From Nocardioides marmoribigeumensis (GTDB lineage Bacteria; Actinomycetota; Actinomycetes; Propionibacteriales; Nocardioidaceae), in NCBI RefSeq assembly GCF_031458325.1, contig NZ_JAVDYG010000001.1, forward strand, positions 3,162,001 through 3,226,000: a DNA stretch of 64,000 bases. Direction: 5' to 3'. The notes beneath the pieces are model-generated. The model was given only the letters and a program-made list of their open reading frames with translations. It was not told where the DNA came from and made no database searches. Shown one piece after another: positions 3,912-25,457 of the stretch. Position numbers and translations under genes: made by a program. The number at the start of each line of letters is the position of its first letter. Position 1 is the first letter of the stretch.

Positions 3912-4753
3912 GGCGCCGCGGGACCGGGGCCCTGGTCGCCCTCGCCACCGTCGCCGCGCTGGCGGGCACGGCCGGACCGGCTGCCTACGCCCAGTGGGGC
4001 GACACCTCCGCCAAGGACCGGGTCGAGGCCGACCCGCCGCCGGCGCTCTTCGCCGACGGCGACCTCGCCCCCGCCCAGCAGGCGCTGGCCGGGACCGCGA
4101 CCCGGGCCCACGCCGCGATGCGGCAGTGGTGGGCGCAGCACGGCACGAAGGCCGACGACGCCGCGTTCATGACGTGGGCCGCCGCCCAGGTCCCCGCCCC
4201 GCCGGCCGCCGCTGCGCGCACGCGCGAGCTCACCCGGGTCCAGCAGCTGTCCTCCCACCGGAGCACGGCGGGGGAGACCGCCGCGACCTGGCTCGAGGTG
4301 CACGGCAAGAAGGACGTCTGGAAGCTCGCCGCCCACGACGCCGCCGAGGTGCTGCCGTCCGACCGCGGACAGGCGCTGAAGGACGCGGTCGACCTCGGGC
4401 TCACGATGACCAAGACGCTGGCCGACGGGCTCGCGGCCGAGGACCGGCAGCCGGCGCCCTACGTCGTGCACCCGGAGCTGCGCCCCGACCACCACGTGTC
4501 ACCGGGCCAGACCTGCCCCTGCTCCTACCCCTCGCGCCACGCGGCCCGAGGCGCGGCCTCGCGCACGGTCCTGTCGCTGGTCGAGCCGCACCGGGCGGCG
4601 GACTACCGCTGGACCGAGGACGAGGTCGACTACTCCCGGCTCTACATGGCCGGGCACGTGCCGAGCGACCTGACCGGCGGTGCCTTCCTCGGCGACCTGG
4701 TCGGGGAGTACGTCGCCCGCACGCGGCTGGGGATCAGCGCCGCCACGGGGTGA
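3908..4753 (+). CDS. Exported PAP2-superfamily phosphatase-like protein
   Basis: A 281-residue protein with an N-terminal signal peptide (cleavage near AAYAQWG). Its C-terminal half has PAP2/class A acid phosphatase motifs: YPSRHAARG near residue 200 matches motif 2 (PSGH-like), and SRLYMAGHVPSD near 240 exactly matches the motif 3 pattern SRxxxxxHxxxD. Motif 1 is only partly present: an ELRP is seen, but the usual upstream lysine is not obvious. It would act outside the cytoplasm on phosphate esters. It starts with GTG overlapping the VTC stop, which places it in the polyphosphate-type operon. Its 3' end overlaps the convergent neighbour by 20 bp. Confidence 0.75.
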   Translation: MRRRGTGALVALATVAALAGTAGPAAYAQWGDTSAKDRVEADPPPALFADGDLAPAQQALAGTATRAHAAMRQWWAQHGTKADDAAFMTWAAAQVPAPPAAAARTRELTRVQQLSSHRSTAGETAATWLEVHGKKDVWKLAAHDAAEVLPSDRGQALKDAVDLGLTMTKTLADGLAAEDRQPAPYVVHPELRPDHHVSPGQTCPCSYPSRHAARGAASRTVLSLVEPHRAADYRWTEDEVDYSRLYMAGHVPSDLTGGAFLGDLVGEYVARTRLGISAATG

Positions 4754-23625: not shown

Positions 23626-23952
23626 ATGAGCAACGAGCCTCTGTGGCGCGAGCTGGTGGGCGCCACGCTCCGCACGGTCCGGACCCGACGTGGCGAGCGC
23701 CTCAGCGACGTCGCCGAGCGGGCCGGCGTCTCGACGCAGTACCTCTCCGAGATCGAGCGCGGCCTCAAGGACCCGTCCTCGGAGATGCTGGCCGCGGTCG
23801 CCGGCGCGCTCGACCTGTCGGTGCGCGAGCTCGGGCTGCTGACCGTGCAGTCGGTCGTCGCCGTCGCGTCGACGCCGTTCTCGGTGACCTCGGTGACCTC
23901 GGCGCCCGGTGCCTCAGGCGCCCCGCACGGCGCGCTCTGCCTGGCCGCCTGA
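23626..23952 (+). CDS. ClgR/PopR-like XRE regulator with C-terminal LAA tail
   Basis: A 108-residue protein with one XRE helix-turn-helix ([44 protein letters not shown], residues about 21-64). This spacing and the [14 protein letters not shown] signature are typical of ClgR and PopR, actinobacterial activators of clp genes. The unstructured tail contains TSVTSAPG and ends in LCLAA, resembling Clp-recognised Leu-Ala-Ala degrons. It converges on the clpP pair and its last 39 bp lie antisense to the end of the second clpP gene. Likely role: activator of clp genes removed by Clp proteolysis (inference from homologues). Confidence 0.82.
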
Positions 23953-24543
23953 GAAGGCGTTGCTCCTGAGCACCACGTCGGCGATGCCGTAGTCCACCGC
24001 CGCCTGCCCCGGCAGCACCAGGTCGCGGTCGGTGTCCTCGCGGACCTGCTCGGGCGTGCGTCCGGTGTGGCGGGCCAGGACCTCCTCCAGCAGGGTGCGC
24101 ACCCGCGCGACCTCGTCGGCCTCGAGGATCAGGTCGGGGATCGTCCCGCGGCCCTGGGCGGCCGGCTGGTGCAGCACGACCCGACCGTGCGGGAGGATCG
24201 CGCGCTGCCCGGGCTCACCGCCGGCGAGCAGCACGGCCGCGGTCCAGGCGGCCTGCCCCACGCAGGTGGTGTGGACGGGCGTGGAGACGAACTGCATCGC
24301 GTCGTACACCGCCAGCATCGCGGTGATCGAGCCACCGGGGGAGTTGAGGTAGAGGTTGATCGGCGTCTCGGGCGACTCCGACGCCAGGTGCAGCAGCTGG
24401 GCGATGACCACGTTGGCGACGCCGTCGTCGAGCTCGGTGCCGAGGTAGACGATGCGGTCCGCGAGCAGCCGTGAGAACAGGTCCATCGTCCGCTCGCCCC
24501 GCGGCGTGTGCTGGACGACGTAGGGGATCGTGAAGGAGCTCAC
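23914..24543 (-). CDS. ClpP-like subunit lacking the catalytic serine
   Basis: A 209-residue ClpP-fold protein. The family core is intact ([25 protein letters not shown], the His in [12 protein letters not shown] near residue 120, and [22 protein letters not shown]). At the nucleophile position the usual GxAAS reads [17 protein letters not shown] (Trp) replaces the Ser codon at 24246-24248. It should be proteolytically inactive alone and is probably a structural or regulatory ring partner of the active ClpP beside it, like ClpR-type subunits. GTG 24543 overlaps the upstream clpP stop by 4 bp, implying paired synthesis. Confidence 0.9.
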
Positions 24544-25148
24544 GCCATCAGCCCCATCGAGCGTGTGTGCGCCGGCGCCACGTCGTCGACCGACGAGATC
24601 ACCCGGTCCACGAAGCCGTAGGCGAGCGCCTCCTGCGCGTCGAACCACCGGTCGCGGCGCGAGTCCCGCTCGATCGTCGCGACGTCCTGGCCGGTGTGCT
24701 CGGCGACCAGCCCGATCACGGTGTCGCGGGTCTTGCGCAGGTCCTCGGCCTGGATCTCGATGTCGATGGCCGTGCCGCCGATGCCGGCCGACCCCTGGTG
24801 CAGCAGGACCCGGGCGTGCGGGAGGGCGTAGCGCTTGCCCGGGGTGCCGGCCGAGAGCAGGAACTGCCCGGCGCTCGCCGCCATCCCCATCGCCAGCGTG
24901 CTGACGTCGTTGGGGACCAGCCGCATCACGTCGTGGATCGCGAGCATCGCCGAGACCGAGCCGCCCGGGGAGTTGATCCAGAGGCTGATGTCGGAGCGGG
25001 GGTCCTCGGCCGAGAGCAGCAGGAGCTGGTGCATCAGCCGGTTGCCGTTGCCCTCCTCGAGGGCCTCGCCCAGCACGATGATGCGCTGGTGCATGAGTCG
25101 CCGGACCAGCTCGTCCTCGAGCCGTCCGTAGGTCGTCGTGGTCGTCAT
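24540..25148 (-). CDS. clpP: ATP-dependent Clp protease proteolytic subunit (active type)
   Basis: A 202-residue ClpP with all catalytic residues: Ser in [19 protein letters not shown] near residue 91, His in [11 protein letters not shown] near 116 and Asp in [22 protein letters not shown] near 165. It would form a barrel with its neighbour and degrade proteins delivered by a Clp ATPase. No clpX, clpC or tig gene is in the window, so this looks like an accessory pair comparable to Streptomyces clpP3-clpP4, not the housekeeping clpP1P2-clpX locus. ATG 25148 begins 48 bp after a small unknown gene. Confidence 0.93.
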
Positions 25149-25196
25149 GCGGCCAGCGTGCGTCGTCGGCCGGCCGGGCCCCAGAGCGTGCTGCTG

Positions 25197-25457
25197 CTAG
25201 TGGATCAGCCGCGGGCGGATCACCCGGAGGGCCACCGAGGCGACCACTCCCACCACGTCCAGGGCGAGCTCCGCGCCGCGGCGGCCGGGGTGGATCGAGC
25301 GGTCGGCCTCCGACCAGGTGTCGAACCAGCCGAGCACCCGCACGACGCCGCCGGACTCGCGCTGGACAGTCACGTAGTCCAGCCGGCCCTCCCGGGTGCG
25401 GTGGGCCCGCACCTCGGGAAGGCCGACGAGTGGCGGCCGTGTGGCGACGGCCGTCAT
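25197..25457 (-). CDS. Small protein of unknown function upstream of the clpP pair
   Basis: An 86-residue basic protein ([19 protein letters not shown]...) with the strand-rich middle [27 protein letters not shown] and a hydrophobic segment near residues 68-78 ([15 protein letters not shown]). I recognise no family. ATG 25457 overlaps the stop of the TTC38-like gene as ATGA, so it is translationally coupled to that gene and may be cotranscribed with the clpP genes 48 bp downstream. Confidence 0.6.

Follow-up and report, generated by a model that had tools for sequence, protein, structure and literature searches.

Gene content of the locus

The window (the whole stretch of DNA analysed here, 64,000 nucleotides from Nocardioides marmoribigeumensis) contains two adjacent clpP-like genes on the minus strand. 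The upstream one, a clpP3-like gene for a ClpP1-type subunit (24540..25148, 202 aa, hereafter P3), carries the motif GMAAS, with Ser92 encoded by AGC at 24875..24873; its Ser-His-Asp triad is intact and it has no N-loop. The downstream one, a clpP4-like gene for a ClpP2-type subunit (23914..24543, 209 aa, GTG start, hereafter P4), keeps the N-loop and the docking patch, retains His125 (LHQP) and Asp174 (DTDRD), and reads GQAAW at the nucleophile site. The preliminary description had reported a full ClpP with Trp at the nucleophile and with His and the Asp region kept, beside a partner that overlaps it by 4 bp and has GMAAS and all three catalytic residues; both statements are borne out, the first from the 209-aa product. 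The TGG codon reported there is likewise present, but its position was two bases off (24246-24248), the codon of Trp100 lying at 24244..24246 (minus strand).

Both products match the PF00574 profile far above the cut-off of 20.2 bits (P3 217.1 bits, P4 206.6 bits). The ClpP domain and fold are thus present in P4 whilst the Ser-His-Asp triad is absent (Trp-His-Asp), and judged from its sequence P4 would be a ClpP-fold protein rather than an active ClpP peptidase. The stop of P3 and the start of P4 share the 4-bp overlap GTGA, read from the sequence at 24540..24543 (minus strand), which likely couples translation of the two genes. P4 seems to begin directly at a mature-type N-terminus, so that propeptide removal would be unneeded.

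Convergent with the pair, on the plus strand at 23626..23952, lies a PopR/ClgR-like HTH regulator of 108 aa with the C-terminus LCLAA. This gene and clpP4 share 39 bp at their 3' ends (23914-23952), so that the codons for the LAA terminus lie opposite the clpP4 tail. An operator-like site, GATCCAC-N3-CAGCAG, is located at 25191..25206 (minus strand), 42 bases upstream of the P3 ATG. An 85-aa frame just upstream of clpP3 (25197-25454) has no Pfam match, and its stop codon falls inside the operator-like site.

The genome (4.44 Mb, one contig) yielded four matches in total to a ClpP search, none beyond the window pair and a housekeeping clpP1P2 pair at genome positions 3975621-3976786, apart from the window pair. 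An ATPase with an LGF loop is encoded just downstream of clpP1P2 (3977914) and, from its position and that loop, is taken to be ClpX-type. The earlier remark that the window pair lies away from clpX thus holds, the ClpX-type gene being found by the separate housekeeping pair. No dedicated ATPase for a second core was found beside the window pair; the genome yielded three ClpB_D2-small matches, and one of these lies beside clpP1P2. Four further genomes from the window's genus (G001-G004), one of them 82% complete, have two ClpP matches each, which are the housekeeping pair, and the second pair would therefore have been recently lost or gained there.

Identity of the second pair

A tree of 93 rows (32 P4, 31 P3, 16 housekeeping ClpP2 and 14 housekeeping ClpP1) split ClpP1 and P3 from ClpP2 and P4 with support of 100. 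P3 formed one group (support 99), as did P4 (92), and the second pair is therefore old, with the Trp gene as its ClpP2-like member, P4. By this tree and by its separate locus, the ClpP1-like and ClpP2-like pair is distinct from housekeeping clpP1P2. The P4 branch lies on the side of actinomycete ClpP2.

The AlphaFold2 model of the P4 monomer (mean pLDDT 85.6, pTM 0.81) has as its best PDB match the Mycobacterium tuberculosis ClpP2 of the ClpP1P2 complex (4u0g_B, TM 0.87/0.93, 45% identity); for the 'altered geometry' proposed in the preliminary description, no evidence was found in this comparison. By sequence alone, Thermus ClpP came first for P4 (6hwm, 4.9e-63) and M. tuberculosis ClpP2 scored 3.8e-55 (4u0g_A), whilst M. 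tuberculosis ClpP1 (4u0g_H, 2.3e-59) was among the closest solved chains for P3.

The pairing is close to invariant. Across 270 second-pair loci, with housekeeping rows left out, the active partner lies directly upstream of P4 in 268, and from this fixed gene pairing we infer that the two subunits may form an obligatory hetero-oligomer, as had been suggested from the window.

The PopR-like regulator and its putative operator

The regulator of the window matches trans_regClgR as its best NCBIfam family (63.4 bits, short of the 170-bit cut-off) as well as HTH_3. Of the 270 loci, 257 have a PopR-like match, in every case (257/257) convergent on the opposite strand, and its product ends in Ala-Ala in 230 of the 257. 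Measured from the P4 stop, that of the regulator falls between 65 bp short of it and 1197 bp past it, with a median of 22. Within the clade of second pairs that carry Trp (see below) the regulator is on the opposite strand in 39/39 and has the Ala-Ala end in 38/39.

Of 272 distinct regions upstream of P3, 94 carry the half-site GATYYRC-N3-NRGCAG, where shuffled sequences would give 0.13; in the Trp clade the figure is 24 of 39. The pattern was composed after viewing 11 upstream regions, including that of the window, and the window's own match is therefore by construction. With 94/272 regions positive, it is only in certain lineages that the half-site stands out clearly. Its sequence resembles the PopR site that PMC9775585 quotes for Streptomyces lividans. 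The exact Streptomyces half-site TCTGCC-N3-GGC occurs upstream of P3 in 66/288 loci and is absent from the window's region, and a ClgR box (GTTCGC-N5-GCG) was found upstream of P3 in 1/288 loci.

In Streptomyces, clpP3-clpP4 is described as a backup that is switched on when ClpP1P2 stops degrading PopR (PMC9765437 and PMC12607617, describing Viala and Mazodier 2000, 2002). As far as these accounts go, the window shares with that system the adjacent ClpP1-like and then ClpP2-like genes, the PopR/ClgR-type regulator with an Ala-Ala end (here LCLAA, beside the pair), a putative operator of similar though not identical sequence, and the position of a second system to housekeeping clpP1P2. The gene pair and the PopR-like neighbour, together with the putative half-site, place the window pair among the clpP3-clpP4-popR backup systems of actinomycetes. 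A second, probably conditional Clp core had been proposed from the window alone, and the comparative evidence agrees. By analogy with Streptomyces, PopR would be degraded via its LAA end by housekeeping ClpP1P2, and the backup core would be made only upon ClpP1P2 failure.

Recurrent loss of the catalytic triad in P4

Second-pair loci were collected as the best 80 of 248 relatives, a family sample (loci from 130 of 133 matching genomes; G222, G203 and G176 left out) and a class sample from other families (80 of the 102 matches, less 5 housekeeping rows). Loci duplicated from the window's own genome were left out, and identical proteins were counted once. Catalytic His and Asp columns were placed by alignment to what we take to be the E. 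coli numbering. After removal of 10 housekeeping rows (5 from the same genus as the window, plus L281, L293, L301, L302 and L304), the triad was broken in 191 of 267 distinct P4 sequences, 185 of which are without Ser and/or His, and intact in 76; these 10 rows are not fully removed from the counts of triad changes on the tree, Trp-clade regulators, docking residues, half-sites and dN/dS. The partner P3 kept an intact triad in 265/265 distinct sequences. In housekeeping controls (31/40 genomes matched at E 1e-75, 30 loci used, the window's genome included) the triad was intact in ClpP2 (30/30) and ClpP1 (30/30) alike. P4 was broken in 84/129 of the family sample, 33 of these with Trp, and in 55/75 of the class sample.

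A closer inspection reveals that the lesions are diverse. Ala replaces the P4 nucleophile in Mycolicibacterium, Nocardia, Amycolatopsis, Lentzea, Rhodococcus, Leifsonia and others; other replacements are Gly, Glu (with Asp changed to Asn or His), Phe and Asp. Streptomyces-type P4, so labelled because it groups with that of Streptomyces sp. AcH 505 (L110, ClpP4 at 4001-4603), keeps Ser and has Gly for His (LLGQP). This holds for L110 and for each of the 15 loci sampled from one genus; L242, L249, L260, L271, L272, L284 and L289 are examples of the type. Elsewhere in the window's family His has given way to Asp, Gln or Glu, and all three triad residues are replaced (Ala, Thr, Gln) in Corynebacterium kalidii (L098). 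Six P4 sequences have a change of Asp to Asn, Ser or His alone; these might keep activity, by analogy with Listeria ClpP1, which is described as having Asn there (PMC9765437).

His is kept in 38/38 Trp-type and 85/87 Ala-type distinct P4, and this retention is not predicted by bare decay. In the NSPGGS substrate-groove loop, the 87 distinct Ala-type proteins have Asp for Ser72 in 77 and Glu for Pro69 in 77 (examples are L069, L075 and L102), whereas SPGGS is retained in all 38 Trp-type proteins.

A tree was built from 151 representatives, 7 of which are housekeeping or housekeeping-like, with the triad columns excluded. It requires at least 30 changes of triad state and at least 10 changes between intact and broken, or 26 losses if loss is irreversible. 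Collapsing weak branches left the counts at 10 and 30, though with 63 of 148 inner branches weak and hence open the exact number of changes is uncertain. Two intact P4 (L207, L212) sit inside the Ala-type group and share its NCEGGD loop; going by their sequences, they may be cases of regained serines.

Selection on P4 and on its tryptophan

The survey of related genomes named beforehand as a check on the Trp gave a uniform answer: TGG was found in 50/50 loci of the Nocardioides-type Trp clade, the window included, and a Ser codon in none. These loci encode 38 distinct proteins, and some of them repeat named records; among the matches listed, the named Trp records number 16 (L046-L061), 15 titled Nocardioides and 1 Propionibacteriales. 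A sequencing error or a decaying pseudogene, to which we give a negligible chance, is ruled out by this constancy together with the full-length frame, the conserved synteny and a median dN/dS of 0.156 for P4 in the clade.

That ratio is closely matched in P3 (0.163), and the same holds for the Ala type (P4 0.249 vs P3 0.244) and the Streptomyces type (0.174 vs 0.176); for pairs with an intact P4 the medians were 0.428 vs 0.498, in a divergent set with 5 housekeeping-like rows in it. These are NG86 values on high-GC genes and hence rough, but as estimated from sequence P4 and P3 are under equal purifying selection.

Amongst the 39 distinct genes of the Trp clade the TGG codon shows 0 changes, compared with a mean of 8 at 64 fourfold sites (minimum 1), and the Trp is therefore held by selection. 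His125 is likewise unchanged across the 39 genes. The catalytic Asp is less constant: it is Thr in 28 of the 38 distinct proteins and Ser in 1 (at gene level, T in 29 and S in 1 of 39).

These figures bear on the simplest alternative, namely that a dispensable P4 triad has drifted by pure neutral decay and that the Trp is a functionless accident. Such decay differs from our preferred reading, set out below, only on the Trp. It would account well for the varied lesions at all three triad positions and for the later loss of Asp in part of the Trp clade. However, a codon without a change in 39 genes where fourfold sites average 8, next to an unchanged His125, points to constraint after the loss, and we regard neutral decay of the Trp as possible but doubtful. 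On the preferred reading, the Trp of the Nocardioides-type clade would have been fixed by one step, TCG to TGG, and would now itself be selected, its side chain probably packing into the vacated active-site groove.

Activity of P4 through another residue, for example Thr101 beside the Trp, was also considered. Thr follows Trp in 51/51 aligned rows, as this idea would have it, but Thr also follows the nucleophile Ser in 28 rows, Ala- and Gly-type P4 mostly have Val, Ala or Pro at this position, and the Asp too has been lost in most of the Trp proteins. On the Thr101 row counts and the Asp loss an alternative nucleophile was rejected as very improbable.

Docking features and a probable division of labour

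The docking features of P4 have been kept where its catalytic ones have not. In the 191 silent P4, the N-loop residues Pro7 and Val9 are each present in 191, the patch residue Tyr65 in 188 and Phe/Tyr85 in 169, with His at position 85 in 22. In untrimmed frames the N-loop motif was found in 247/270 P4 vs 0/266 judgeable P3 (268 frames minus L101 and L220, whose sequence starts within the gene). At the docking-patch positions P3 mostly carries Trp or Tyr, and Leu. By our mapping, P4 Tyr65, position 85 and Trp100 correspond at a constant offset of 10 to Tyr75, Tyr95 and Ser110 of M. tuberculosis ClpP2, of which Tyr75 and Tyr95 form the patch mutated in PMC9067928.

In M. tuberculosis, chaperones are reported to dock on the ClpP2 face (PMC9067928, PMC4416901), and growth with ClpP2 S110A equalled the control whilst that with ClpP1 S98A did not (PMC9067928). 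In S. hawaiiensis, ClpP1 combined with ClpP2 S131A is described as keeping activity fully (PMC9765437).

Sequence, conservation, recurrence, linkage and selection were observed directly in this analysis, and we consider it likely that the window encodes a PopR-controlled backup core in which P3 cuts and a silent P4 docks the ATPase. P3 (ClpP1-like) would be the cutting ring of what is presumably a 7+7 assembly. P4 (ClpP2-like), its silence predicted from sequence, would be the ring that closes the chamber, and its N-loops and hydrophobic patch would form the docking face for ClpX or ClpC, the choice of ring following from these features by inference. Since catalysis by the docking ring is dispensable, it would be lost repeatedly and by different lesions, with docking and assembly features kept. 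The 76/267 P4 with an intact triad imply that silence is not needed for the docking role. Against the docking part stands the His at patch position 85 in 22 of the 191, and against the PopR part the regulator score below the ClgR cut-off and the occurrence of the half-site pattern in no more than 94/272 regions.

Silent P4 could instead be a regulator of the housekeeping core, mixing with ClpP1 or ClpP2 and so retuning or inhibiting it. The genome also encodes ClpP1P2, and partner swapping by a distinct ClpP is described for ClpP-ADEP of S. hawaiiensis (PMC12607617). However, P4 has its own active partner adjoining it in nearly all loci, and P3 and P4 show equal constraint; we think such a role quite unlikely.

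The preferred reading of a cutting P3 and a docking P4 may also be extended into an adaptive one, which we put forward as rather unlikely. The backup core would run when natural products that attack ClpP (beta-lactones, which acylate serine, and ADEPs) stop ClpP1P2; silencing P4 would then remove the reactive site of the docking ring, and in the Trp and Glu lineages the larger residue would lock the ring in the active, extended state. If so, loss of Ser or of His would alike render the ring inert to mechanism-based inhibitors, which would give many lesions in the backup pair and none in 30 housekeeping ClpP2. In favour, S. coelicolor without clpP3 and clpP4 is reported to be killed by beta-lactones (PMC9775585) and ClpP3P4 to be ADEP-insensitive (PMC12607617). 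Against it, the reactive Ser is retained in P3.

Relation to known systems and implications

The window pair differs from the Streptomyces system in its P4, which has Trp, whereas P4 in the Streptomyces-type loci compared here keeps Ser with Gly for His. In M. tuberculosis ClpP1P2, as described (PMC9067928, PMC4416901), ClpP1 likewise cuts, ClpP2 docks and ClpP2 catalysis is dispensable; however, ClpP2 there has an intact triad, and the pair serves as the housekeeping core. The principle of a silent ring is thus already published for M. tuberculosis ClpP2 (PMC9067928).

The loss of catalytic residues that marks ClpR is found in the window P4. ClpR of cyanobacteria, plastids and apicoplasts is, according to PMC7966870 and PMC6508832, a silent ClpP paralogue that works with an active ClpP, and the preliminary comparison of the window pair with ClpR, in principle, is in keeping with the comparative evidence. 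ClpR is nonetheless of another lineage, and in cyanobacteria and plastids it is described as mixing with active subunits within a ring, whereas P4 is a ClpP2-type actinomycete subunit. Nocardia asteroides, S. coelicolor and Leptospira interrogans are each reported to have one clpP allele without critical residues, reminiscent of ClpR (PMC9067928). The two actinomycete alleles are probably of the same silent-subunit class as P4; the passage gives the three examples, and in it there is no survey, partner comparison or Trp clade. The literature searched, mostly outside subscription papers, yielded no survey of recurrent loss, no Trp variant and no report that such loss is restricted to P4.

Taken together, the recurrent disabling of P4, and of its partner in none of the sequences surveyed, suggests that the P4 ring now mainly docks the feeding motor, in a second Clp machine that, by analogy with Streptomyces, is probably for emergencies only. 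A two-ring Clp core with one non-cutting ring moves from a laboratory result to a natural experiment repeated among actinomycetes, with the ring identified. This raises the question of why housekeeping ClpP2 keeps its triad (30/30) though the M. tuberculosis mutant thrives, whilst backup ClpP4 loses it repeatedly. Moreover, actinomycete 'ClpP' annotations will often denote inert subunits, which is relevant to Clp-directed drug work.
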